Source: Roseivirga sp. 4D4 (GTDB taxonomy: Bacteria > Bacteroidota > Bacteroidia > Cytophagales > Cyclobacteriaceae). From it: a stretch of 64,000 nt of DNA. The notes below the pieces were generated by a model. The model saw only the letters and a program-made list of their open reading frames with translations. It did not search any database and was not told where the DNA came from. A program made the translations under genes and the position numbers. Shown here piece after piece: positions 5,080 through 31,285 of the stretch; positions within the stretch are counted from its first letter, which is position 1, and every line of letters begins with the position of its first letter. Where the stretch lies: NCBI RefSeq assembly GCF_001747095.1, contig NZ_MDGP01000001.1, positions 479,001-543,000 of the forward strand. Reading direction: 5' to 3'.

Positions 5080-5997
5080 TTAATTCAGGTTTCTGTACTC
5101 ACTGGGGCTCATTCCTGTTTTAGACTTAAACAGTTTACTAAAGTTTTGAGGGTATTCGAAACCTAGTTGGAAGGCTACTTCACTCACTGACTCACCTGAG
5201 TTTAGCAGCTTGGTCTTTGCACGATCGATGAGATAGGAATGAATGTGGTCTTTAGCGCTTCTTCCCGTTTCTAACCTCAATAAATCGCTTAAGTATGGAC
5301 CGGACATATTTAACGCCTCACCACATTGTTCAATCGTAGGTGGGCCTTGTTGAACAAGTTCTTCTGAGTTAAAATAAGATTTTAGAAAGTGATCAAATTT
5401 TGAGATTAAATCTTTGTTGGCATTAGTGCGAGTATAGAATTGACGATCGTAATAGCGGCTGCTGTATTTCAGAATAGTCTCTAAGTTTTGGATAATGAGT
5501 TGCTGCGAATGACGGTCCATATTCTGATTGATTTCTTCTTCAATGGTATCCACCAAAGTATTAAGGAATTGCCTTTCCTTATCTGACAAGTGCAGAGCCT
5601 CGTTGTTGTCATATCCAAAGAAGGAATATTGGTCTATCATATTGCCCAGTTCCGATTTTCTAATTAGGTCTGGATGAAACAGAATGGTCCATCCATTAGA
5701 TGGTGTTGATATGTCAGCAAACTGAGCCGCATGAGAAAAGTTAGCTACCTGACCTGGACCTATAAATAGCATAGTGCCTTCCTGAAAGTCATAGGAGTTT
5801 CTTCCGTATTGAAAACTTCCTCTAATCTCTCGTTTCATGGCCATGTAATATAAGTCGCTTGTGAACCTCGCGGTACCAAGGTCTATCTTTGACTTCGGCC
5901 ATTTTCTTATGACGGTAATCAACGGGTGAGTAGGCGTCTTTGCATCCAGGAAGTTGTAGACCTCAGCAATACTCTTCACATGTATGATCTTTTCCAT
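5080..5997 (-). CDS. AraC-family transcriptional regulator
   Basis: A 305-residue regulator. The N-terminal two thirds form a cupin-like ligand domain; the C-terminal ~100 residues hold the two helix-turn-helix units, including the signature 'VAFQLGFEYPQNFSKLFKSKTGMSPSEYRN'. It precedes the SDR gene on the same strand. The upstream 200 bases to the lytic transglycosylase hold its presumed promoter. The inducing ligand is not known. Confidence 0.88.
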   Translation of the reverse strand: MEKIIHVKSIAEVYNFLDAKTPTHPLITVIRKWPKSKIDLGTARFTSDLYYMAMKREIRGSFQYGRNSYDFQEGTMLFIGPGQVANFSHAAQFADISTPSNGWTILFHPDLIRKSELGNMIDQYSFFGYDNNEALHLSDKERQFLNTLVDTIEEEINQNMDRHSQQLIIQNLETILKYSSRYYDRQFYTRTNANKDLISKFDHFLKSYFNSEELVQQGPPTIEQCGEALNMSGPYLSDLLRLETGRSAKDHIHSYLIDRAKTKLLNSGESVSEVAFQLGFEYPQNFSKLFKSKTGMSPSEYRNLN

Positions 5998-19350: not shown

Positions 19351-20079
19351 CTAAATAAAAAGATCGGTATTCGAAATTTTTGTTCGATAGGTCTTACCGA
19401 CCGGTACCTTCATGCCATTATTCATGATGAGTGTATGACCTGTCTTGCTCTTGATCTTTTGCTTTGGCACTATAAAGGAACGGTGGGTGCGAATGAAGCT
19501 ATCTGGTAGCTCCTTTTCCATTTTAGTCAGTGAATTGAGTACCAGGAATTTTCGATCCTTTGTATAATAGCGAATGTATTCTCCTACTGATTCTATTAAT
19601 TCAATTTCACCGAGTTTGAGCCGATGTTTATCATAACCAGATTTGATTATAATGTATTGTGTCTGATCATTCTGCAAAGACTCAAACTGAAAAGCCTTTT
19701 CTTCAAGCATGAATGTGTTCTTAATCTTTTCAAGACATTTCATAAAGCGCGCTTCAAGAATCGGCTTTAGCAAATAGTCTAAAACATCAAACTCATAGCC
19801 TTTCAGAGCAAAGTCTTGATAGGCAGTAGTAAATACTATTTTAGACTCAATCTCATATTCTTCAAGAAACTCCAGTCCCGTCTTGTGTGGCATTTGTATA
19901 TCTAGGAATATAACATCAATGCGTTCACTCTCTAATGCTGCTTTGGCTTCAAAGGCATTCTTACAAGAGGCGACCAGTTGAAGCTGTGGCTGTTTTTTAA
20001 TCAGGTGGATGAGTAGCTCCCGTGCGTACTGCTCGTCATCTACCACCATGCATTTTATGGATATATCAGACTGCGTCAT
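19351..20079 (-). CDS. LytTR-family response regulator
   Basis: A 242-residue regulator with an N-terminal receiver domain (acidic pocket VVDDE, phospho-acceptor D60 in VIFLDIQMP, lysine K105 in YLLKPI) and a C-terminal LytTR DNA-binding domain (about 143-240, with 'FIRTHRSFIVPKQKI'). It overlaps the histidine kinase gene by 14 bases, so the pair is one operon. The pair is transcribed away from the TonB-receptor operon, which starts 200 bases from the kinase start, making that operon a plausible target. Confidence 0.92.
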   Translation of the reverse strand: MTQSDISIKCMVVDDEQYARELLIHLIKKQPQLQLVASCKNAFEAKAALESERIDVIFLDIQMPHKTGLEFLEEYEIESKIVFTTAYQDFALKGYEFDVLDYLLKPILEARFMKCLEKIKNTFMLEEKAFQFESLQNDQTQYIIIKSGYDKHRLKLGEIELIESVGEYIRYYTKDRKFLVLNSLTKMEKELPDSFIRTHRSFIVPKQKIKSKTGHTLIMNNGMKVPVGKTYRTKISNTDLFI

Positions 20080-21127
20080 GATTGATGTTTATGTTGATGA
20101 TGAACCTGCCGTTTTTTTGAACAGACTCGAATTTATGGCGATCAGGGTAGGCATAGTTGAGTCTGTGTTGAATATTACTTAAGCCAATTCCAGTTTCTGA
20201 AGGCGCTTTATTAGGTTGAGATGCAGAGGGGATAAAACTATTTTCGATATGGATGCTTGTATTATGCCCTCGGTGCTGAATGTCTATGTTTATGTCTAGG
20301 TTTTCGCCAGTAATAGAATAGCCATGTTTGAAAGCGTTTTCCAAAAGAGGTATAAGAATCATAGGTTCTATTTCGGCTAAGGGGTTGTCAATCTCCTTCT
20401 TCAGCTTAACCTCAATATTAGCTTCATCTTTCATGCTCTGAAAAAAGATGTAACTCTCAATTACTTCAATTTCCCGAGAGAGCTTTATCTGCCCATTCTG
20501 ACATTCATAAGTAACATAGCGCAGCATTTCACTCAGCTTTTGTATAAACTGATCGGTCTTTTCTGGTTTGAGCTTGAATACACTATACAAGTTGTTTAGC
20601 GCATTGAAAAAGAAGTGTGGATTGATCTGCGATCTCAGAAATTTCAATTCTGCTTCCGTCTTTTCTTTTTCCAGAAGAATGGTGACTTGTTCTTTTTTCG
20701 ATTGGTCTATGGCCAAGGCATAGACTGTACTGATGAACAGTATGATCAGCGTTAAAATCAAAGGAGGAAAAATCTGTACCGGTTGGGGCAGATCAGCGAA
20801 AGTAAATTCACTGCCTGGTATTGTCCGACTTAGCTGAGCTTCGGTCAGGTTTGATCGGAACCACCAAATTAGCATTCTACTCACTCCTACAAGCAGTACA
20901 AGTACAGAGAGTCCGTATTGCCCATATTTTTTTCTTTTAAACAGTTTGGGTACCAGCACATATAGGTTGAAATAGGCCAGACCGATTTGAAGCGCAAAGG
21001 GCAGAGATATTCTTGTCAGTACAGGAATTAGAGGCTCCTCCTGAATTCCAAAAGTAAAAGGGAATAAGAACAGTATCAGCCAGAAACCGATATGGAGCCA
21101 CTTGATGTAATGCTTCGAAATTTTCAC
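20066..21127 (-). CDS. LytS/YehU-type sensor histidine kinase
   Basis: A 353-residue membrane kinase with four predicted transmembrane helices in residues 10-145, a short coiled segment (about 145-165), and a His_kinase domain with the phospho-accepting histidine H171 in SQINPHFFFNALNNL. The ATPase part shows 'LIPLLENAFKHGY' and 'GIGLSNIQHRL'. It has no large periplasmic sensor, so the signal is probably sensed in the membrane. It works with the overlapping LytTR regulator. Confidence 0.92.
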   Translation of the reverse strand: MKISKHYIKWLHIGFWLILFLFPFTFGIQEEPLIPVLTRISLPFALQIGLAYFNLYVLVPKLFKRKKYGQYGLSVLVLLVGVSRMLIWWFRSNLTEAQLSRTIPGSEFTFADLPQPVQIFPPLILTLIILFISTVYALAIDQSKKEQVTILLEKEKTEAELKFLRSQINPHFFFNALNNLYSVFKLKPEKTDQFIQKLSEMLRYVTYECQNGQIKLSREIEVIESYIFFQSMKDEANIEVKLKKEIDNPLAEIEPMILIPLLENAFKHGYSITGENLDINIDIQHRGHNTSIHIENSFIPSASQPNKAPSETGIGLSNIQHRLNYAYPDRHKFESVQKNGRFIINININHDAV

Positions 21128-21328
21128 CTCCTAAAAATAGGTCGCTTAACCGAGAATCTTTTGAGTGAGGGTGTTATTCACTGAATAATTGGCATCACTC
21201 ACTGAATGCTATCCAACAAGAGATAACAAATAATCAGTTCGGGTGTGTCTTAAGCCAAAACATATAAAGCAATGGTCAAAACTTTGACATTTAAACAGGC
21301 AAGAAGTGAAACAGAAAAGTCCGGACTG

Positions 21329-23740
21329 ATGAGATTCAGCCGGCTCTTTTTTTACCTGTCCATTTTCCTTTTGGTAGCCACTGAAAGTTATGGACAAGGG
21401 GAGAGAGCAGTTTTAAAAGGTAGAATAAGAGACGCAAGCACTGGTGAAGATCTCATCAGCGCAACTATCTATGTCCAACAGACGGGTAGTGGGGCTGTTT
21501 CCAACGCTTACGGATTTTATTCGCTGGTTTTAAAACCCGGCAAGTACAATATAAAAGTGAGCTATATCGGTTTTGAGACAATAGAACAAGAAATCGAATT
21601 AAAAGGAGATACAGAGTTGAATTTCGAGTTAACGATTAAGTCCGATGAACTCGAAGAGGTGGTGGTCTATGCAGAGGCAGAAGACGAAAACGTCAAGAGT
21701 GTGAAGATGAGCGTGGCTAAGATTGATGCGAATACGGTTAAGCAGTTGCCCACAGTCTTTGGAGAGGCAGACCTTGTGAAGTCCATCCAGTTGTTACCGG
21801 GGGTAAGCAGCGCGGGAGAAACATCTGGTGGTTTCAATGTAAGAGGAGGAGCAGCAGATCAGAATCTAGTACTGCTAGACGAAGCGACAATCTTTAACAC
21901 AAGTCACCTTTTTGGGCTGGTTTCCATATTCAATGCGGATGCGGTTAAAGATGTAACACTATATAAAGGTGGAATTCCCTCGATCTATGGTGGCAGGCTT
22001 TCTTCTGTCCTTGATGTAAGGCAAAAGGATGGTAATAGCAAGCAATTGGCAGGAAGTGCAGGTATTGGTTTATTGTCCAGCCGATTGAATGTTGAGGGTC
22101 CGATAGATCAGGGCAAGGGATCCTTTCTGGTGGCGGGTCGGAGGTCCTATGTAGATCTCTTTCTGCCTTCGGTATTGGACGATCCACCAACGGTTTTTTT
22201 CTATGACATCAACCTAAAAGCAAATTATGCCTTTGATGCTGATAACAGACTCTTTGTGTCTGGCTATTTCGGGAGAGACAACTTCAGCGTAGACGACTTT
22301 TTAAACAATGATTGGGGAAATCTGGCCTTTAACCTACGGTATAACAAAGTGTTGAATGAAAATCTCTTTTCGAATGTATCGCTCATTTACAGTGACTACC
22401 GATACAACTTCGACATTCTAAGAACAGACGGTTATTCATGGGAAGCCCATATTGAAAATTTCAATCTAAAGACAGATTTCACGCTATTCCAGCAAGGTGA
22501 TAATCAATTGGATTTTGGTGCTAGCTTACTTTACTATGATTTTAATCCAGGCGACATTAGCCCGAATGCCGAGTCTACTACTGTGCCTACGACTCTCGAT
22601 CCTAAGTTTGCCCTCGAGCCTTCGCTATATGTAAGTGCCAAGCGTACGCTTTCCAGTAATTTGACGATAGAAGCTGGTCTTCGACTCTCTTCCTTTCTTA
22701 GAATGGGGAGCGAAGAAGTACGGCTTTATGAAAACGATCAGCCTGTAGTCTACAACAGTCAGTTGGGGCGATATGAAGAAGCTAATGTGGTTGGTTTTGA
22801 ATCCTATGGGTCTGGAGAAGTTATTTCCAGCTTTTATAATCTGGAGCCAAGGCTTTCACTCAATTATCAGTTGAACGACAGGAGTTCTTTAAAAGCAAGC
22901 TACAATAGAACTGTTCAATACATTCACTTGATTTCAAATAGCACATCTCCGACAGCATTAAATATTTGGACACCAAGTGGCCCTTACTTAGAACCACAAC
23001 TGGCCGATCAAGTCGCCTTCGGTTATTTCAGAAATTTCCGTGATAACACCTATGAAGCCTCAGCGGAAGTCTATTACAAAGACATGCGCAATCAAGTAGA
23101 TTATGTCGATGGGGCAGACATCCAATTGAATAACTATCTGGAAACTGAATTACTGAGCGGTATTGGAAGGTCGTACGGACTGGAATTGTATGTCAAAAAG
23201 AACAAGGGACGACTCACAGGATGGTTAAGTTATACGCTGTCGCGAAGTGAACGCAAAATAGATGGTGAGGGTACAGGAGGTCCTGGTATTAACAATGGGG
23301 AATACTATGCAAGCAATTTCGATAAGACACATGACCTGAGTTTGACGGGAATGTATAAGATCAATAAAAGCCTGACATTTTCTGCCAACTTTATTTACCA
23401 GACCGGTATGCCGATCACCTATCCGGAAAGTCGCTATGAGTTTGGCGGTATAGTGGGGGCAAACTTTGAATCCCGTAATCAAGCCCGAATTCCAGATAAT
23501 CATCGACTTGACCTCTCCCTAACGGTAAATACAAAACAAAGACCAAAATGGGATGGTAGCTGGACTTTTAGTTTGTATAACGTTTATAATAATCAGAATG
23601 CCTACGACATCACTTTCAGTCCCACCGGAGCAGAAAGAGGGGCAGAAATTTCACAGTTCTACACTGACCGATTCAATACCCAAGCGACTCAATCGTACAT
23701 CGGCTTTTTCCCAAACATCACTTATAACCTAAAATTCTAA
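21329..23740 (+). CDS. TonB-dependent outer-membrane receptor with carboxypeptidase-like N-terminal domain
   Basis: An 803-residue outer-membrane transporter. The start at 21329 gives a clean signal peptide (MRFSRLFFYLSIFLLVATESYGQ); the frame is open 57 bases further up. After the leader comes a carboxypeptidase-D regulatory-like domain (about 25-110, 'LKGRIRDASTGEDLISATIYV'), then the plug (about 125-235, 'GGFNVRGGAADQNLVLLDEATIFN') and a 22-strand barrel ending in 'SYIGFFPNITYNLKF' with the terminal aromatic residue. A DUF4249 lipoprotein follows after 3 bases. This pairing resembles SusC/SusD logic, with the lipoprotein possibly serving as substrate lid. The cargo is unknown. Confidence 0.92.
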   Translation: MRFSRLFFYLSIFLLVATESYGQGERAVLKGRIRDASTGEDLISATIYVQQTGSGAVSNAYGFYSLVLKPGKYNIKVSYIGFETIEQEIELKGDTELNFELTIKSDELEEVVVYAEAEDENVKSVKMSVAKIDANTVKQLPTVFGEADLVKSIQLLPGVSSAGETSGGFNVRGGAADQNLVLLDEATIFNTSHLFGLVSIFNADAVKDVTLYKGGIPSIYGGRLSSVLDVRQKDGNSKQLAGSAGIGLLSSRLNVEGPIDQGKGSFLVAGRRSYVDLFLPSVLDDPPTVFFYDINLKANYAFDADNRLFVSGYFGRDNFSVDDFLNNDWGNLAFNLRYNKVLNENLFSNVSLIYSDYRYNFDILRTDGYSWEAHIENFNLKTDFTLFQQGDNQLDFGASLLYYDFNPGDISPNAESTTVPTTLDPKFALEPSLYVSAKRTLSSNLTIEAGLRLSSFLRMGSEEVRLYENDQPVVYNSQLGRYEEANVVGFESYGSGEVISSFYNLEPRLSLNYQLNDRSSLKASYNRTVQYIHLISNSTSPTALNIWTPSGPYLEPQLADQVAFGYFRNFRDNTYEASAEVYYKDMRNQVDYVDGADIQLNNYLETELLSGIGRSYGLELYVKKNKGRLTGWLSYTLSRSERKIDGEGTGGPGINNGEYYASNFDKTHDLSLTGMYKINKSLTFSANFIYQTGMPITYPESRYEFGGIVGANFESRNQARIPDNHRLDLSLTVNTKQRPKWDGSWTFSLYNVYNNQNAYDITFSPTGAERGAEISQFYTDRFNTQATQSYIGFFPNITYNLKF

Positions 23741-23743
23741 GAC

Positions 23744-24604
23744 ATGAAGAAGTTATTAATTCTATTGACAGGAGCATTTATGCTGACAGCTTGTACTGAC
23801 GAGCTGGATGTAGACTTGGAAGAAGGACAAGTCCGTTTGGTTGTTGAAGGCCGACTGGTAAGGCAAAAGGAAGGGTCAAATAGTGGCTATCAGTTCATTC
23901 GACTATCTACTACCGCTCCATATTTTCAAAATGAACAAACACCGGCAGCACGAGGAGCAAGTGTTGAAGTACTAGAGCTTGAGACCAATGTCACCTATGT
24001 CTTTGCCGAGTCAGCCGATGAGCCGGGCATTTATGAGACTTTCGGTATGACCCCAACGGTCGGTTTTACCTATCGACTTGAGGTTCGATATGAATCCAGT
24101 ATTTATCAAGCTACTGAAGAAATGCTCGCTGTGGCATCCATCGATCGCTTGGATCAAGAATTTAGAGAGGAGACCATTTTCCGAGATGAGGGCATAGGCC
24201 TGTTGCTGGATTATCAGGATCCTGAGGGTATAGAAAACTACTATCATTGGCAAACCTATCGCAATGATACTTTGCTGATTCGGGCTGATGTGGGGAATCA
24301 ATTTAACCTGATCTCTTCAGATGAGTTCTACGATGGCTTGAAAGTAGTAGGTTTTGAATTGGCAGGTGATTTTTCCTTTGAGCCAGGAGATCGTGGTTTG
24401 GTGAGACAATATGCCCTCTCGAAGGAGGCATACGATTATTATCGGATTTTCTATGAACAGGCGGTGGGTCTTGCACCTGGGGGGGGCGATGTAGTTCCGG
24501 CTACTTTGCGTGGTAATGTTCAAAATGTGAGTAATGATGCACTCTATCCTTTAGGCTATTTCGAAGCAAGTGAAGTTTCTCAACAGGAAATTACGGTTCA
24601 ATAG
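23744..24604 (+). CDS. DUF4249 lipoprotein
   Basis: A 286-residue lipoprotein; leader MKKLLILLTGAFMLTAC with the lipobox cysteine at 17. 'VRLVVEGRLVRQKEG' and 'YQFIRLSTTAPYF' are typical of DUF4249, a family found directly downstream of TonB-dependent receptors in Bacteroidota. It is presumably surface-exposed and associated with the upstream receptor. No terminator is visible after the stop; the DnaA-box-like array begins 18 bases later. Confidence 0.85.
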   Translation: MKKLLILLTGAFMLTACTDELDVDLEEGQVRLVVEGRLVRQKEGSNSGYQFIRLSTTAPYFQNEQTPAARGASVEVLELETNVTYVFAESADEPGIYETFGMTPTVGFTYRLEVRYESSIYQATEEMLAVASIDRLDQEFREETIFRDEGIGLLLDYQDPEGIENYYHWQTYRNDTLLIRADVGNQFNLISSDEFYDGLKVVGFELAGDFSFEPGDRGLVRQYALSKEAYDYYRIFYEQAVGLAPGGGDVVPATLRGNVQNVSNDALYPLGYFEASEVSQQEITVQ

Positions 24605-24621: not shown

Positions 24622-24689
24622 TGTGCATAAACATGTGGATAACCCGGTGGATAACTATGTGAATAGCTGAGTGGGAAACTTGTTGAAAA
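24622..24689. other. 12-bp-periodic array of six DnaA-box-like sites (candidate origin element)
   Basis: Six 9-mers in the same orientation start at 24622, 24634, 24646, 24658, 24670 and 24681: TGTGCATAA, TGTGGATAA, GGTGGATAA, TGTGAATAG, AGTGGGAAA, TGTTGAAAA. TGTGGATAA is the exact complement of the consensus DnaA box TTATCCACA and TGTGCATAA matches the relaxed form TTATNCACA; the others differ by one or more bases. The spacing is 12 bp (last one 11). The array is followed by TAGGGGG and a gene-free stretch of ~870 bases. This fits a replication-origin box cluster or a DnaA-responsive control site, but no dnaA, parAB or gidA gene is in the window and no strongly AT-rich unwinding element is evident. 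Confidence 0.6.
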
Positions 24690-24705
24690 CTAGGGGGTTA
24701 CAAAG

Positions 24706-24736
24706 TTTGCCTGTAAAGTTATGTAGAGTACCTTAG
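24706..24736 (+). promoter_or_regulatory. Bacteroidota-type promoter of the candidate structured RNA
   Basis: TTTG at 24706-24709, 19-base spacer, then TACCTTAG at 24729-24736, one base off the Bacteroidota -7 consensus TAnnTTTG. The start of transcription would be near 24743. It lies 17 bases downstream of the DnaA-box-like array, so DnaA binding could influence it. Confidence 0.55.
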
Positions 24737-24742
24737 GTATAC

Positions 24743-25458
24743 CAAGTGAGGGATAAAGAACAGAAGTTTTACTTCAGTCTCTCTTCGGGGGAAGCCCGAA
24801 AAAGTGTAGTGAAAGGGTTGACATGCAAATGTTAATCTGAGACAGTCAAAGTGATGCTGTTAGTATTTCTCCGGATAGCAATTGAAGGAGGCGATATCGG
24901 AAATTTACTTCAGGGATAATTTCCAAGCGTTTGTGATCACTACTTGAAAGGGAGTAATCATAAGACGTTCTAAAAATCTTTCTATGAAAGGTGACTAGAC
25001 AGCGCTTTTAACAGTTGACTTTAACGAGTACTGAGCAATCAGGATTAGTTATCGTCAGGAAATACTTCGGTATGCTCCTAATCACGACCAGCGATCATCG
25101 GCAACGGTGATTGACACCTTCTTGCAAGAGAAGGTGGAATATGTGGAGGCTACTTTCGGGTAGTTTTGACAAAGAACGTTGGTGGATATCTGCAAAGATG
25201 TACAAGACTGCAAAAGCTTCGCATAAGCGATTGGTGCTGAGCACCGAACTATAGGTGAAGCCGAAAAAAGACAGCGTTTGAACTTGATTGCTTGGGCCTT
25301 CAAGTTTCGGCAAAGTTCTGAACAGTAACTTGGCGTCTTTAAATAGTTCACGCTATTTAAAGATGAGCAGGGGACGAGTAATCGTCCCCTGACTTTGTTA
25401 TTTGGGGGTATTTGAAAAAATACTGGAAGAGACCACTGGGGAGTGGTCTCTTTTTTTT
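24743..25458 (+). ncRNA. Candidate large structured non-coding RNA (~715 nt), family not recognised
   Basis: The stretch has no plausible plus-strand ORF but is full of stable hairpins: 24784-24800 (TTCGGG/CCCGAA), 24899-24924 (GGAAATT/AATTTCC), 25062-25073 (ATAC-TTCG-GTAT), 25092-25113 (9 bp closed by a GCAA loop), 25115-25136 (CACCTTC/GAAGGTG), 25149-25164 (CTACT-TTCG-GGTAG), 25231-25247 (TTGGTGC/GCACCGA), 25260-25311 (GCCGA/TCGGC enclosing AACTTGA/TCAAGTT), 25336-25363 (11 bp), 25368-25391 (10 bp closed by a GTAA loop) and the terminator. Two UUCG-type and two GNRA-type loops and the promoter/terminator frame argue for a functional RNA. It does not show the conserved motifs of RNase P RNA, tmRNA, 6S, SRP RNA or group II introns. 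The 5' end is inferred. Confidence 0.55.
25428..25458 (+). terminator. Strong Rho-independent terminator
   Basis: Stem AGAGACCAC with GTGGTCTCT around a 6-base loop (TGGGGA), followed by a run of eight or nine T ending at 25458. It closes the candidate RNA transcript and separates it from the TetR gene. Confidence 0.9.
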
Positions 25459-25558: not shown

Positions 25559-26236
25559 ATGGCACTACTACGGCTTGAAATGAATGCTAATCTCTTTCTG
25601 CGTGATCCGCAGGAAACAGATTTGGGGAGAAAAATTATTGACCAATCCATTCGTATGATCGATGAGTTGGGTTTGGAGGCTTTTACCTTTAAGAAATTAT
25701 CGGTAGCTATTGATTCTACCGAGGCTTCCATCTATCGTTACTTCGAAAACAAGCATAAATTACTCGTTTACCTGATCGCTTGGTATTGGAACTGGCTGGA
25801 GTATAGGATTGATTTTGAAACGCATAATGTAATGTCTGCTCAAGACAGGCTCGCGATTGCGTTGCGTCTGGTCACCGAGCAAAAAGGTTACGACTCCAGT
25901 TTTCCATCGGTGGACGAGTCAGCTCTCCAGCGAATCGTCACCAATGAGTCAGATAAGACCTATCTCACAAAACAGGTTGATAGTGATAATAAAGAGGGAC
26001 TCTTTCGAGGTTTTAAAACTCTTTGTAAGAGAATCGCGGATATGATCAAAGAGATCAACCCTGACTATAAGTACTCACATGCTCTAATCAGTACAGTTTT
26101 GCAAGCAGCACATCAGCAGGTATTTTTCGCAGAGCACTTGCCGTCCTTAACTGAGCACAAGGCTGCACAGGGCGATATCCACCAACAGAATTATAAGTTT
26201 CTTCTTGAACTCATAAACAAGGCCATTAAGGCGTAA
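25559..26236 (+). CDS. TetR-family transcriptional regulator
   Basis: A 225-residue regulator. The N-terminal helix-turn-helix is in 'IIDQSIRMIDELGLEAFTFKKLSVAIDSTEASIYRYFENKHKLL' (about 22-66), the classical TetR pattern ending in YRYFxNKxxLL. The rest is an all-helical ligand domain. It is the first gene of an apparent operon with an ABC exporter, an HlyD-type adaptor and a TolC-type channel (gaps of 11, 3 and 4 bases). The palindrome upstream is its likely operator, and the exported or toxic substrate its likely inducer. Confidence 0.9.
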   Translation: MALLRLEMNANLFLRDPQETDLGRKIIDQSIRMIDELGLEAFTFKKLSVAIDSTEASIYRYFENKHKLLVYLIAWYWNWLEYRIDFETHNVMSAQDRLAIALRLVTEQKGYDSSFPSVDESALQRIVTNESDKTYLTKQVDSDNKEGLFRGFKTLCKRIADMIKEINPDYKYSHALISTVLQAAHQQVFFAEHLPSLTEHKAAQGDIHQQNYKFLLELINKAIKA

Positions 26237-26247
26237 AGTTTAATCTT

Positions 26248-28419
26248 ATGACGAATCAGCACATTGCGAATTCCATAAAGGAGGTCTCAATTTTACTCAA
26301 CAATAGCCTTGAAGAGGCTTTGCTTCAGGACCTTCAGGTCAATGCAAAGTCATATGCAATTGATGAGGCATTTGAGTTTAAAAGGGACTTGATTGAAGCG
26401 GCTAACAAAACCCGCATCGTATTATTGGATCAATCTCTGGCCGGAGTAGAATTGGCTTCTTTTATCAAAGATGTGAATATCCCTTTGATTGCCTTTAAAC
26501 AGTCTGAAGAAGGTTTTGCTCCCGTTATCTTGACTAAGGCAAAGAAGAACATAAAAGTCCTTGAAATCACCCCGGAAGCTACTTTAGAAGTTGACTTTGA
26601 CGAAATAAAATCAACGTTGATGCGCGATGAGCAGGGCGAAATTATGCTACTCGGAGCATTTAGTTATAGGAGTTTGGTTTCAGAGCATGAGGAAGGAGAG
26701 ATTCCTAAACCGCTTTCTCCTGTAAAGCGCCTCATTAGGCTTCTGAGTGAAGAAAAGAGAGATATTTTCTATGTTTTTGTTTATGCCGCATTTGTTGGTA
26801 TTGTTTCTCTGACTTTACCATTGGGAATCCAGGCAACTGTCGAACTGGTTTCCGGAGGTGTCGTTTTCAGCTCCATTTACTTACTGATAGGGCTGGTGCT
26901 TCTGGGTATTCTGGCTTCTGGTGGTTTACAGATTATGCAAATCACACTAGTGGAATACTTACAAAGAAGAATTTTCACAAAAGCAGCACTGGAATTCACA
27001 TTTAGGATTCCTCGTATGAAGATTGAGTCACTGAGCAATCTTCATGCTCCTGAGTTGATCAATAGATTTTTTGATGTGTTGACTATCCAGAAAGGCTTGC
27101 CAAAGTTATTGGGAGACTTGACATCAGGGATCATCCAAATCATATTCGGACTGGTATTACTATCATTTTACCACCCATTCTTTGTGTTCTTTGGATTGGT
27201 GCTGATTCTGACGCTGGTTTTGATCTTTCGATTGACAGGTCCTAAAGGTCTTCAATCCTCAATCAAGGAATCAAAATACAAATACAAAGTAGTCTATTGG
27301 CTTGAAGAGATTGCCAGAACATTGAACTCATTCAAAATCTCGGGTAATACAAATCTACCAGTCAAGAAGACCGAATACAACGTCAACAATTATCTGATTA
27401 ATCGAAAAGTACACTTTAAGGTGTTGGTTAATCAGTATGTATATATCGTCTTGTTTAAGGCCGTTATCACTGGTGGCTTACTAATTATTGGTACATCCCT
27501 AGTGATCAATAGAGAAATTACGCTCGGTCAATTCGTTGCTGCTGAGGTTATTATCATTCTAATCCTGAACTCAGTAGAGAAAATTATCACCTATATGGAT
27601 GTGGTATATGACATGCTGACGGCAGTCGATAAGATAAGTCAGGTGACGGATTTGCCACTGGAGAAAGTAGGGGGTATCGACCTTAATAACGAAGAGTTGA
27701 CTAAGGGCTTTTCCATTAGACTAAGAAACCTGAGTTATACTTATCCAGGTGCAAAAACACCTGCCATACACAGCATTAATACGGGCTTTGCTTGTGGTGA
27801 AAAAGTTTGTATTTCTGGTGGAAATGAATCAGGAAAGACAACCCTGACCAATACCATTTCGGGTATTAATCAGAACTATGAAGGTGCCCTGACGATCAAT
27901 GATTATAGCCTAAGAGATCTAGACCTAACCAACCTAAGAGATAAACTTGCTAAGAACGTTTCGGCCGAAGATATTTTCGAGGGAACAATCTTAGATAATA
28001 TTGTGGTAGGCAAACCACAAGTGTCGACAAGAGATGCTGTTGAAGCCATCAATAAGGTTGGGCTTTCGGATAAGATCAATATGCTGCCTAATGGCTACAG
28101 TACTCAGATCATTAGTGGAGGTAAAGGTTTTTCGAGCAGTTTTGTTCATAAGATCATCCTTGCTCGATGTCTCGTCAAGAGACCAAGACTACTGATACTG
28201 AACGATTTCTTCTCCTCATTCCAGAGGTCAGAGAAGGAACACTTGATAAATGTGGTAACAAGCAATGCGGAATGTACACTTGTGGCCGTATCGAATGACC
28301 CATTAGTAATGGCAGCATGCGATCGCGTAATTGTCATGGAAGAAGGCACTGTGAAAGCTGAAGGCACCTATAGTGATCTCTTATCAGAAGGATTGTTAAA
28401 CAAAATCATAAAAGTTTAA
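26248..28419 (+). CDS. Type I secretion-like ABC transporter with degenerate ATPase domain
   Basis: A 723-residue protein with an N-terminal ~140-residue domain resembling the inactive C39-like domain of RTX exporters, six transmembrane helices (about 170-445) and an ABC ATPase domain (about 485-723). Walker A is intact (GGNESGKT, 524-531), but the Q-loop Gln is Ala (VSAED, 573), the signature is ISGGKG instead of LSGGQ, Walker B reads LLILND (Asp to Asn at 652, Glu to Asp at 653), and the H-loop His is Asn (VSND, 683). Such changes would be expected to bind ATP but hydrolyse it poorly. The reading frame is intact and the operon context (HlyD, TolC) is complete, so the protein is probably functional with altered energetics, not a pseudogene. 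Confidence 0.85.
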   Translation: MTNQHIANSIKEVSILLNNSLEEALLQDLQVNAKSYAIDEAFEFKRDLIEAANKTRIVLLDQSLAGVELASFIKDVNIPLIAFKQSEEGFAPVILTKAKKNIKVLEITPEATLEVDFDEIKSTLMRDEQGEIMLLGAFSYRSLVSEHEEGEIPKPLSPVKRLIRLLSEEKRDIFYVFVYAAFVGIVSLTLPLGIQATVELVSGGVVFSSIYLLIGLVLLGILASGGLQIMQITLVEYLQRRIFTKAALEFTFRIPRMKIESLSNLHAPELINRFFDVLTIQKGLPKLLGDLTSGIIQIIFGLVLLSFYHPFFVFFGLVLILTLVLIFRLTGPKGLQSSIKESKYKYKVVYWLEEIARTLNSFKISGNTNLPVKKTEYNVNNYLINRKVHFKVLVNQYVYIVLFKAVITGGLLIIGTSLVINREITLGQFVAAEVIIILILNSVEKIITYMDVVYDMLTAVDKISQVTDLPLEKVGGIDLNNEELTKGFSIRLRNLSYTYPGAKTPAIHSINTGFACGEKVCISGGNESGKTTLTNTISGINQNYEGALTINDYSLRDLDLTNLRDKLAKNVSAEDIFEGTILDNIVVGKPQVSTRDAVEAINKVGLSDKINMLPNGYSTQIISGGKGFSSSFVHKIILARCLVKRPRLLILNDFFSSFQRSEKEHLINVVTSNAECTLVAVSNDPLVMAACDRVIVMEEGTVKAEGTYSDLLSEGLLNKIIKV

Positions 28420-28422
28420 GTC

Positions 28423-29781
28423 ATGTTGAATCTATCAGAAAATAAAGATCAAGAGATCCAGCATCAGCAGAGTGTTCTGTTTAAAACCTTAGGTTCTCCT
28501 AAGGCTGGGAAGAAACTGGCAAGGATATTACTGACCGTAACTTTTTTGTTTTTCATTTTACTGTTTTTTCCATGGCAGCAGAATATTCGAGGTAATGGAA
28601 AGTTGACGGCCTTCAGGCCAAGTCAAAGACCTCAATCCGTAGAAACCGCGATTGCCGGGCGTATTGAGAGTTGGAAAGTGCGGGAAGGACAGTTTGTCAA
28701 CAAGGGAGATACAATTTTGACACTCTCTGAGGTCAAAGACAAGTTCTTTGACCCGGATTTACTCGATCGTTTGAAGGAACAAATTGATGCAAAAAGCTCG
28801 AGCATAGAATCCAAAAAGGATAAAGTCACTTCGTTAGAAAATCAGATAAAGGCGCTGAACGATTTGCTAGTATCCAAGACAGAGCAAGCAGAAAATAAGC
28901 TTAAACAAGCTGGATTTAAACTGGTCAGCGATAGTGTGGATTACGAGGCTGAGAAGGTTCTTTTTGCAAATGCAGAAGATCAGTATCAACGAAACTTGAA
29001 AAGGAGAGAGGCGGGAAATATAACGCTAACCAAAATCCAGGAATTCGAATCCAAGTATCAGGCTGCCAAGGGTAAGGTTACAAGCAAGGAGAATAAATTC
29101 TATGAGAGCCGGCAGGAGTTGATCAACGCAAGGGTCGGAATTGAAGTGGTTAAATCAGAGCTGTTAGATAAGATTAGTAAAGCTGAATCTGATCGAAACA
29201 ATACGTTAGCAGAGATCTTTGAGGGTGAAGGTAGTCTGGCAAAGCTTCAAAACGAGTATGCCAATATGACCATCAGGAATGAGCAGTACCAATTGATCGC
29301 TCCTCAGGATGGGTATATCGTAAAGGCGATGAAGGCAGGTATCGGAGAAACCATCAAAGAAGGAGAGTCGGTGGCCCAGATTATGCCGGAAAACCCTGAG
29401 TTGGCTGTTGAAATGTATGTCAAGGCAATGGATGTGCCTTTGATCGGTATGGACAGGAAAGTCCGAATTCAATTCGATGGATGGCCGGCATTACAGTTTT
29501 CAGGCTGGCCCAATGTGTCTGTTGGTACCTTCGGAGGTGTGGTTCGTGTGATTGACCTAGTAAATAGCACAGGTGGTGAATATAGAATTTTAGTAACACC
29601 AGACCCAGAAGATGAGCCATGGCCTGAGCAACTAAGAATTGGCTCAGGGACAAAGGGATGGGTCATGCTCGACAATGTTGCAGTATGGTATGAAATCTGG
29701 CGTCAGCTGAATGGTTTCCCGCCAAGCCTGTATGAAGCACCTAAAGAAGTAAAGGAAAAGGCAACGGCAGAAAAAAAGTAG
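28423..29781 (+). CDS. HlyD-family periplasmic adaptor
   Basis: A 452-residue membrane-fusion protein. One N-terminal transmembrane helix (about 35-52), a lipoyl-type half motif ('AGRIESWKVREGQFVNKGDTIL'), a long coiled-coil hairpin (about 110-280) and the second lipoyl half ('IAPQDGYIVKAMKAGIGETIKEGE') followed by a beta-barrel domain. It should join the ABC protein in the inner membrane to the TolC-like channel. It lies 3 bases after the ABC gene. An acidic-basic tail (KEVKEKATAEKK) closes the protein. Confidence 0.9.
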   Translation: MLNLSENKDQEIQHQQSVLFKTLGSPKAGKKLARILLTVTFLFFILLFFPWQQNIRGNGKLTAFRPSQRPQSVETAIAGRIESWKVREGQFVNKGDTILTLSEVKDKFFDPDLLDRLKEQIDAKSSSIESKKDKVTSLENQIKALNDLLVSKTEQAENKLKQAGFKLVSDSVDYEAEKVLFANAEDQYQRNLKRREAGNITLTKIQEFESKYQAAKGKVTSKENKFYESRQELINARVGIEVVKSELLDKISKAESDRNNTLAEIFEGEGSLAKLQNEYANMTIRNEQYQLIAPQDGYIVKAMKAGIGETIKEGESVAQIMPENPELAVEMYVKAMDVPLIGMDRKVRIQFDGWPALQFSGWPNVSVGTFGGVVRVIDLVNSTGGEYRILVTPDPEDEPWPEQLRIGSGTKGWVMLDNVAVWYEIWRQLNGFPPSLYEAPKEVKEKATAEKK

Positions 29782-29785
29782 TCCT

Positions 29786-31285
29786 ATGAAGAAAAAAATC
29801 ACTTTTTTCTCGCTGGTGACGATTTTGAGCCTGGCGACTGTTGCAAGTTATGCGCAGGATTTAAAGGTAAAATCTCTAGATGAGTTACTGACCGAAAATA
29901 CGGCAGATACCACGCGTATTCTCCCATTAGAGTCCTTCGTGGATATGGTGTTGCTAAGTCACCCAGTTGTAAAGCAGGCCAATTTGTTACCGGAGAATGC
30001 TAAACAAGAAATACGATTAGCAAGGGGAGCCTTCGACCCTAAGTTGGAGTCTTCCTGGGACGTGAAAAACTTTGATGACAAGGAGTACTGGGATTTGTTC
30101 AATACCACTCTTAAAGTACCCACTTGGTTTCCGGTGGACCCAAAGGTGAGTTTTGATCGTAACAAGGGACAGTTTGTGAATCCAGAAAATTCAATCCCGG
30201 GTTCAGATGACTTTCAACAGGTGACCGCAGGTTTGAGCTTGCCAATCGGGAGAGGTTTATTGATAGACCAGAGAAGGGCTACGGTGAAGCAGGCAGAGTT
30301 ATTTGCCCAGATTACCGATGCCGAGCGAATTAAAATGATCAATAAGGTCCTATTATCAGCTTCGAAAGACTATTGGGAGTGGTATTTCGCATTCTACAAT
30401 TATCTGCTGATCGAAGAGAGTTTAAATATCTCACAAAATGTATATCAAAGGGTTCTAACAGATTTCGAGTTTGGAGAGGCTGCTGCTATAGACACTGTTC
30501 AAGCAGCCATTACACTGCAAAACCGGAAAGTCGATAGAAGTGAGGCTCTGATTGATTTTAGGAAGGCCGGCTTGATGCTTTCCAATTACCTATGGGGGCA
30601 AAATGAGGAGCCGATGGTCCTTCAGGATAACATAGTTCCTCAGCTTGACTTTGGTTTGAACCTTTTGGGTTCGGATATCTCATTAGATAGCCTGCGTTTG
30701 CTAGCGATTCAAAAACATCCGGAACTGGTTAAGACCAATTTCAAACTTGATCAATTGGATATTGACAGAAGGCTGGCAAGAGAGAATCTTAAACCTCGGG
30801 TTGACCTCAACTATAATCTGATCAATTCACCGGTAAATCAACAAGGTGAGTTTGTAGAGGTTCAACTGAGAAACAATTACAAGTTTGGCATTGAGTTCGA
30901 GTTTCCACTTTTCCTTAGAAAGGAGCGTTCTAAATTACGTCAGACAGAGATTAAGATTGAGCAAACTACTTATGAACTGAGCCAGTTAGAAAGAGAAATT
31001 CTCAATGGCATAGAGGCTTCGTTTTTTGAGCTTGATAATACGAGAGGTATGTTGAGTTTAATGCAGGAAGCGGTAAATAATTATACGATTTTGCTCGACT
31101 TAGAATTAATCAATTTGGCGAACGGGGAAAGTGATCTTTTTAAGATCAACTTCCAACAGGACAAACTCCTCGAGTCCCAAATCAAATTGATGAAGATGCG
31201 ATCGGCTATGGAGAAGGCCAGAGTGACACTTTACTGGTCCGCAGGGCTGCCTTATCTTAACTTTAATTTGAATGGTTCTAATTAA
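29786..31285 (+). CDS. TolC-family outer-membrane channel
   Basis: A 499-residue outer-membrane efflux protein. The signal peptide ends ASYAQ (about residue 23). The two OEP repeats contain long amphipathic helices ('AELFAQITDAERIKMINKVLLSASKDYWEWYFA' region and 'IKIEQTTYELSQLEREILNGIEASFFELDNT' region). It completes the tripartite exporter with the upstream adaptor and ABC protein. No terminator is obvious before the ferritin promoter. Confidence 0.9.
   Translation: MKKKITFFSLVTILSLATVASYAQDLKVKSLDELLTENTADTTRILPLESFVDMVLLSHPVVKQANLLPENAKQEIRLARGAFDPKLESSWDVKNFDDKEYWDLFNTTLKVPTWFPVDPKVSFDRNKGQFVNPENSIPGSDDFQQVTAGLSLPIGRGLLIDQRRATVKQAELFAQITDAERIKMINKVLLSASKDYWEWYFAFYNYLLIEESLNISQNVYQRVLTDFEFGEAAAIDTVQAAITLQNRKVDRSEALIDFRKAGLMLSNYLWGQNEEPMVLQDNIVPQLDFGLNLLGSDISLDSLRLLAIQKHPELVKTNFKLDQLDIDRRLARENLKPRVDLNYNLINSPVNQQGEFVEVQLRNNYKFGIEFEFPLFLRKERSKLRQTEIKIEQTTYELSQLEREILNGIEASFFELDNTRGMLSLMQEAVNNYTILLDLELINLANGESDLFKINFQQDKLLESQIKLMKMRSAMEKARVTLYWSAGLPYLNFNLNGSN

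Follow-up and report, generated by a model that had tools for sequence, protein, structure and literature searches.

Covarying structure and an upstream DnaA-box-like array in a candidate class of non-coding RNA from Bacteroidia

RNAs of the CsrB/RsmZ type act as protein sponges, GOLLD/ROOL-like RNAs occur in phages or plasmids, and DnaA is the protein that starts DNA replication. PMC12286853 presents OLE, GOLLD and ROOL as large ornate bacterial RNAs. CcnA, as portrayed in PMC8959179, is a Caulobacter non-coding RNA encoded at the replication origin, with CtrA as its presumed activator, and PMC4585315 describes E. coli datA and DARS as non-coding chromosomal regions acting on DnaA. The locus considered here lies in the window, the whole 64,000-nucleotide stretch of Roseivirga sp. 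4D4 DNA that was analysed and to which all five-digit positions refer, and its interval 24739–25458 is almost certainly the gene of a structured non-coding RNA whose class is absent from Rfam. Like OLE, GOLLD and ROOL as characterized in PMC12286853, it is a large, highly folded, non-coding bacterial RNA with an enigmatic molecular role. Unlike them, it is chromosomal, belongs to Bacteroidia, measures 195–722 nt and comes without an Rfam match at the gathering threshold; it is mostly accompanied by an upstream DnaA-box-like array, and neither a phage or plasmid copy nor a fixed neighbour was found.

At the gathering threshold of Rfam 15, no match was obtained in the window or in 16 homologous loci, and at E ≤ 1 none was obtained in seven homologous loci. 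Rfam 15 includes the OLE, GOLLD and ROOL families, and their models matched nothing in the window or in the 16 and the seven homologous loci. Searched alone, the window stretch returned 15 weak matches, all far below threshold (best E 0.0032, 26.1 bits versus a gathering score of 51), and ARAGORN detected no tmRNA in the window. A description of this RNA class was not found in the open PMC literature, in which the large candidate-RNA catalogue PMC8040213 was represented by main-text passages only. The interval had originally been proposed to encode a structured non-coding RNA, possibly of a new class, and this proposal is supported by the lack of an Rfam match at the gathering threshold together with the strong covariation described below.

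Genus conservation and the predicted fold place the RNA gene, in the long form typical of the genus, at 24739–25458 on the plus strand. The promoter is found in the sequence exactly as it had been read before, with TTTG at 24706–24709, a spacer of 19 nucleotides and TACCTTAG at 24729–24736, an arrangement that we take to be of the Bacteroidota type. The conserved RNA start lies at about 24739–24743, which corrects the start at 24743 given in the original prediction of an RNA of about 715 nt; the interval does fold, the plus strand of 24743–25458 reaching −247.6 kcal/mol versus −187.0 ± 6.6 in 20 dinucleotide shuffles (z = −9.16), but its size is atypical of a class with a median of 299 nt. The minus strand of the same interval is structured too, less strongly (z = −6.75, 20 shuffles). 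The tetraloops reported earlier are all present in the sequence (UUCG at 25066–25069 and 25155–25158, GCAA at 25101–25104 and GTAA at 25378–25381), and the assertion that there is no credible ORF also stands, the longest ORFs fully inside the interval having 89 aa on the minus strand and 47 aa on the plus strand, none of them widely kept in homologues. Among the homologous loci compared, no ORF of at least 30 aa was common to more than a few close genera. A coding region was considered and rejected: the widest-spread ORF of at least 30 aa, a 35-aa frame on the minus strand, has relatives in nine other loci from few close genera. Features that go beyond the original prediction are short forms elsewhere, a second copy in the same genome, repeated modules and the upstream DnaA-box-like array. 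The locus comprises:

24622–24666, plus strand: four DnaA-box-like motifs at an exact spacing of 12 bp, TGTGCATAA at 24622, TGTGGATAA at 24634, GGTGGATAA at 24646 and TGTGAATAG at 24658.
24671–24690, plus strand: GTGGGAAACTTGTTGAAAAC, a continuation of the array that is strongly conserved in the genus.
24706–24736, plus strand: promoter TTTG-N19-TACCTTAG, which is conserved (sequence and alignment A1).
24739–24755, plus strand: 5′ motif ATACCAAGTGAGGGATA, which holds the 5′ strand of P1, CCAAGT, at 24742–24747.
24763–24775, plus strand: P2 hairpin shortly after the 5′ motif, at a position that hairpins also occupy in other genera.
24784–24800, plus strand: hairpin TTCGGG...CCCGAA (columns 47–63 of the nine-sequence alignment).
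24815–24838, plus strand: body hairpin GGGTTGACAT-GCAA-ATGTTAATCT, followed by TGAGACAG (fold and nine-sequence alignment).
25321–25333, plus strand: 3′ motif AACAGTAACTTGG, which holds the 3′ strand of P1, ACTTGG, at 25328–25333, pairing with 24742–24747.
25334–25365, plus strand: 3′ hairpin (covariation alignments).
25368–25399, plus strand: first terminator-like hairpin, CAGGGGACGA-GTAA-TCGTCCCCTG and then ACTTTGTT, at the terminator position of homologues.
25428–25458, plus strand: second intrinsic terminator, AGAGACCACT-GGGG-AGTGGTCTCT, running into eight T (sequence and compensatory changes in the genus).

The gene therefore has two terminator-like hairpins. The one with eight T (25428–25458), which the original prediction took as the end of the RNA, is present and kept in the genus, but it is preceded by the hairpin at 25368–25399, which occupies the terminator site of the homologues. 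Downstream, on the same strand as the RNA, lies a TetR-family gene (25559–26236). Behind it, ABC transporter, HlyD-family and outer-membrane efflux genes stand in a row (26248–31282), likely forming an export operon, and on the other side of the RNA gene a LytTR response regulator and histidine kinase pair is followed by a TonB-dependent receptor-like gene and a DUF4249 gene (19354–24601).

To describe the RNA as a class, we relied on 109 distinct copies. They were selected for the presence of an end motif on either side of the body, AUAYCAAGUGAGRGAUA and AACNGUARCUUGR; the body varies in size, and the RNA measures 195–722 nt with a median of 299 nt. The set consists of 111 both-motif matches minus L188 and L207, selected with at most four mismatches in all; motif conservation within it is partly by construction, which does not hold for letters that covary where the motifs are degenerate or mismatched, and the copies include those of related genomes and are hence non-independent. 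Across the 109 copies, P1 has standard pairs in 637 of 654 cells versus 12–323 of 654 with slid partners. One of its pairs is C-G in 58 copies, U-A in 36, U-G in 11 and U-C in four, C-A never occurring, and rarer double changes bring together CCAAAU with AUUUGG, CCAGGU with ACCUGG and CCAAGA with UCUUGG. In L066, L183 and L189, P1 contains one inner mismatch.

The 3′ hairpin was analyzed over 14 aligned pairs in 60 sequences, where 87.7% of the cells are paired versus 60.8% in shuffled and 34–44% in slid controls, and 244 cells are double-changed versus 89 in shuffles, neither measure being equalled in any of 500 shuffles. The number of hairpin pairs with double changes, 14 of 14, is uninformative, with shuffles averaging 13.0 and 132 of 500 reaching 14. 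The hairpin loop is UNCG-like in many homologues and not so in the window copy. Both P1 and the 3′ hairpin thus carry compensatory changes beyond the shuffled and slid controls, as is characteristic of a structured RNA, and covariation in homologues, whose absence would have refuted the original prediction, is strong. Base-pair covariation over hundreds of nucleotides indicates selection on the RNA. The alignments cover part of the sequences collected: A1 contains 37 of 54 listed sequences, with L090, L115, L120, L121, L126 and L128 left out beforehand, A2 contains 60 of 92 and A3 nine of 18.

In the nine long forms of the genus, 43 of 115 predicted pairs are compensated, a control-free count; in the hairpin at 24784–24800, one pair is G-C in six of nine Roseivirga-type RNAs and A-U in the other three. 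The TGAGACAG that follows the body hairpin at 24815–24838 may correspond to the module head. When RNAalifold was applied to these nine long forms, it preferred as partner of the 5′ strand, over P1, the stretch GUUAUUUGG, located downstream of the first terminator hairpin; a part of this stretch, TTTGGGGGTATTT, is found in 18 of 18 genus loci. The segment 25394–25423, TTTGTTATTTGGGGGTATTTGAAAAAATAC, overlaps the end of the first terminator and is nearly invariant in the genus, its core being present in 18 of 18 loci. In the genus form, the GUUAUUUGG/TTTGTTATTTGGGGGTATTTGAAAAAATAC stretch may pair with the 5′ end in an alternative structure that replaces P1; because the pairs are invariant, the alignment makes no choice between the two. 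Fold z-scores of 63 RNAs (one of 64 sequences was excluded for N letters) have a median of −2.30 on the forward and −0.95 on the reverse strand, 35 RNAs reaching z ≤ −2 on the former and 13 on the latter, and are modest outside the long forms.

Homologues extend well beyond the genus. Inside it, the interval is matched in 18 of 19 genomes, including 17 of 17 of high quality, the miss being an assembly 80% complete, and the locus from 24700 to its end spans 551–763 nt, its ends being conserved and its middle variable. A first search of the family matched 23 of 295 genomes, six of which belong to other genera. Of these six, L031, L034 and L036 are homologues, shorter RNAs built on the same plan with the 5′ end in common; the remaining three (L032, L033 and L035) match in a piece of the 3′ tail only, no trace of the other parts of the RNA being seen, and look like chance. 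A pattern combining the -10 element with the 5′ motif occurs in 58 of 390 family genomes, or 21 of 84 genera, with three genomes for the reversed control; loci L090, L115, L126 and L128 look like chance matches. With the 5′ sequence model R1, 137 of 390 genomes were matched at E ≤ 0.01, the weaker matches being provisional, and 50 genomes reached 1e-6 (42 in Cyclobacteriaceae and eight in family f8), some of them among the genomes used to build R1. Family f8 belongs to the same order and combines genomes of 1.2–1.6 Mb with RNA versions of 228–231 nt.

A scan of named genomes yielded 21 loci, including Roseivirga, Algoriphagus and bins labelled Bacteroidales, Bacteroides, Flavobacteriales and Chryseobacterium. 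One of the 21, L188, is a chance match in coding sequence, and five of the metagenome bins, whose labels may be wrong, hold both end motifs, the hairpin and the terminator. At the level of the class, a pattern search matched 17 of 395 genomes versus one for the control; 13 of the 17 also have the 3′ motif, nine of them outside the family, while L199, L207 and L215 seem to be matches that arose by chance or in coding sequence and in L204 no 3′ motif was seen before the contig end. The 3′ covariance model matched only five of 395 phylum genomes, a low count that may mean that RNA-bearing genomes of the class were not drawn or were lost by stricter filters. Taken over the fetched loci, the 109 distinct copies come from Cyclobacteriaceae, from family f8 with its small genomes and, here and there, from other families of Bacteroidia. 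Among 648 flanking ORFs of at least 100 aa, no protein family recurs in more than four genus labels. In a bin labelled Bacteroidales, the locus L186 (minus strand, oriented position 5497) has retained the 5′ motif and the promoter together with box-like repeats; it enters an ORF about 110 nt after the 5′ motif, has no visible 3′ motif and is perhaps a truncated RNA copy reused as a leader.

The variation in length is accompanied by repeated modules in part of the RNAs. Fifteen of 63 RNAs contain the heptamer ACCGCAG, with a total of 27 occurrences where 0.4 would be expected, and a strict module pattern, GARAYRG followed after 8–30 nt by YRCAGAA, matches 19 of the 63, the other 44, including all genus long forms, having none. 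Within the 19, the 12 RNAs with a single module measure 219–327 nt and the seven with two or three modules 537–547 nt, all seven of the latter coming from one genus, Algoriphagus (g82). A general rule that a longer RNA has more modules was rejected: the 19 matching RNAs follow it, but module number and length are not significantly correlated when all 63 are considered (Spearman 0.21, p = 0.10). Growth by tandem copies of the module is indicated for Algoriphagus only. With sizes ranging from some 200 to some 720 nt and tandem modules in one genus, the class provides a natural case of ornate-RNA growth.

The window genome contains the RNA at a second place, C1:1279822–1279893 on the minus strand, where the 3′ covariance model scores 51.7 bits (2.6e-8) and R1 matches weakly (5.1e-5). 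This second copy (L281, G000:C1:1279822–1280077) is about 255 nt long, has the same plan and is without boxes; its fold gives z = −2.80 (200 shuffles), and the part up to P1 alone z = −0.10. Second matches occur in four of 19 genus genomes. The three readable copies (L281, L282 and L283) have TACCTTTA or TATCTTTA as the -10 stretch, UCAUCAAGUAAG as the start and no box, and in the fourth, L285, no 5′ motif was seen. Short array-less copies are perhaps a second paralogue group outside array control. Some genomes carry two or three copies of the RNA. As separate observations, copies L120 and L121 of genus g56 resemble the short box-less second copies of the genus, two RNA copies lie about 1.45–1.48 kb apart in five of nine fetched loci of family f8 (L216–L220), and two lie about 1.9–2.0 kb apart in genus g64 (L103, L225–L227).

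The array upstream of the promoter is built from variants of TGTGnATAA, which is how the DnaA-box consensus TTATnCACA reads on the opposite strand. Upstream sequence was sufficient for 108 copies. Of these, 100 are preceded by at least one TGTGnATAA on the RNA strand with at most one mismatch, 80 by at least two and 59 by a perfect one; eight have no box. The mean number of boxes is 2.25 on the RNA strand versus 0.13 on the other, and, with both strands counted together, 206 flank windows averaged 0.136 and shuffled sequences 0.32. Of 9360 windows of 170 bp sampled on both strands, one contained at least three boxes. Spacing between boxes peaks at 11 bp (88) and 12 bp (92) when two mismatches are allowed. 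A pair of boxes spaced by 12 bp has its only two exact matches in the genome within the array, and with at most one mismatch it occurs in six places, three of them in the array. Stretches GTGGGAAA and TTGTGGGAAA, similar to GTGGGAAACTTGTTGAAAAC, are present in part of the family. As R1 covers the near end of the array, copies found by R1 are biased towards having it (35 of 38 have a box); a box is also found in 47 of the 52 outside-genus copies obtained with array-free patterns and in 18 of 18 genus copies. Given that no flanking protein occurs in more than four genus labels, the array has stayed with the RNA through changes of neighbourhood. The eight box-less copies and the three genus second copies indicate that the RNA is not dependent on the array everywhere.

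A perfect inverted pair of the same motif, TTATCCACA-N7-TGTGGATAA, lies upstream of dnaA (G000:C1:2764477–2764501, L052), where it is likely to be an autoregulatory site, and this arrangement would fit TGTGnATAA serving as a DnaA box. DnaA-box-like sites on the promoter side are conserved with the RNA gene, the array-less copies excepted, as would be expected of a gene regulated by DnaA. Judged from sequence, control of the RNA gene by DnaA appears about evenly balanced between true and false, and another regulator could read the boxes instead.

Taking these data together, we lean towards a trans-acting RNA that would be controlled by DnaA or by another reader of the array. The presence of DnaA-box-like sites at 100 of 108 copies would agree with a locus that is mainly a DNA element, either an origin or a site that titrates or converts DnaA as datA and DARS do, with the RNA incidental or serving local transcription. 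In two complete genomes of another genus, the RNA is close to the GC-skew switch, at 1.006 Mb with the switch at about 0.94–0.96 Mb in G054 (one out-of-trend sample at 0.88 Mb) and at 1.972 Mb with a noisy switch at about 1.9–2.15 Mb in G262. Skew sampling of the window genome, however, puts the origin at 3.2–3.6 Mb and the terminus at 0.9–1.2 Mb, with the RNA, at 0.504 Mb, at neither; covariation over hundreds of nucleotides points to selection on the RNA, and second copies retain the RNA without boxes. We therefore regard the DNA-element explanation as improbable. The specific candidate of a replication origin was rejected for the window genome, whose skew switch is elsewhere; in G054 and G262, where the RNA is near the switch, a link may exist. 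Conservation of sequence across the class in the strands beside P1 would suit a base-pairing regulatory RNA, whose GAGRGAUAAAAG strand or 3′ motif would pair with mRNAs; simple pairing would not need a large, folded body of variable length, however, and this explanation, too, is an unlikely one.

Three further explanations are less likely still. The broad occurrence of the RNA, mostly in one or two copies and as an independent gene, would be in keeping with a very divergent housekeeping RNA (6S, RNase P, tmRNA or SRP) missed by the Rfam models, but Rfam returned nothing at E ≤ 1 in seven homologous loci and only sub-threshold matches in the window stretch, making this highly improbable; to our knowledge, the size range and end motifs agree with none of the four. 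Even less credible is that the RNA belongs to a mobile or defence element, be it an ORF-less intron, a retron, a guide RNA of HEARO or omega type, or an ornate RNA carried by phages: the ornate structure and the two or three copies in some genomes agree with it, but the exact 5′ motif is absent from viral contigs, a blastn search with the window stretch, able to detect close relatives only, gave 0 matches in 50,697 phage and 72,556 plasmid records, and no flanking protein is recurrent. Carriage by phages or plasmids was rejected, as no matches were obtained in viral contigs or in phage or plasmid records. The position of the RNA upstream of the TetR-family gene, on the same strand, raises the possibility of a leader or riboswitch of that gene, to which we give almost no credence: two terminator-like hairpins separate the RNA from the gene, and the 648 flanking ORFs include no family in more than four genus labels. 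A conserved downstream gene was not found, and the riboswitch or leader candidate was rejected.

Computationally, pairing between the 5′ end and a site near the 3′ end (P1) closes a domain, followed by a hairpin and an intrinsic terminator. In the preferred reading of a trans-acting RNA, DnaA would bind the array and control transcription, such that RNA output would track the level or nucleotide state of DnaA. A protein partner would recognize the conserved ends, namely P1, the conserved strands beside P1 and the 3′ hairpin, and the body modules would add binding sites, turning the RNA into a scaffold or sponge, a role that is our guess and a doubtful one. Somewhat less doubtful, although still tentative, is the idea that DnaA filaments on the helically phased same-strand array would switch the gene with the replication cycle, the modular RNA relaying this timing in trans to its protein partner and the array-less paralogue acting as a constant counterpart. 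If true, this would make the RNA an output of the DnaA clock in Bacteroidia. Should the array be what its sequence suggests, replication control in these bacteria would have an RNA arm. The Roseivirga and Algoriphagus hosts are culturable, which makes a possible link between the RNA and replication directly testable.

Several known systems resemble parts of this picture. As a working model only, repeated modules within one RNA could titrate a protein in the manner of CsrB/RsmZ, while the module sequence, unlike theirs, is this RNA's own. The datA and DARS loci, as described in PMC4585315, are likewise non-coding, and here the locus comes with clustered DnaA-box-like sites; it differs from them in that covariation reveals selection on the RNA and in that the array is placed at the promoter of the RNA. 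With CcnA, as presented in PMC8959179, it has in common a non-coding RNA gene tied to DNA with DnaA boxes. In contrast to CcnA, which is located at the origin and presumably under CtrA, the RNA lies away from the GC-skew switch of its own genome. Among the sources consulted, CcnA is the nearest precedent for a link between a non-coding RNA and replication control.
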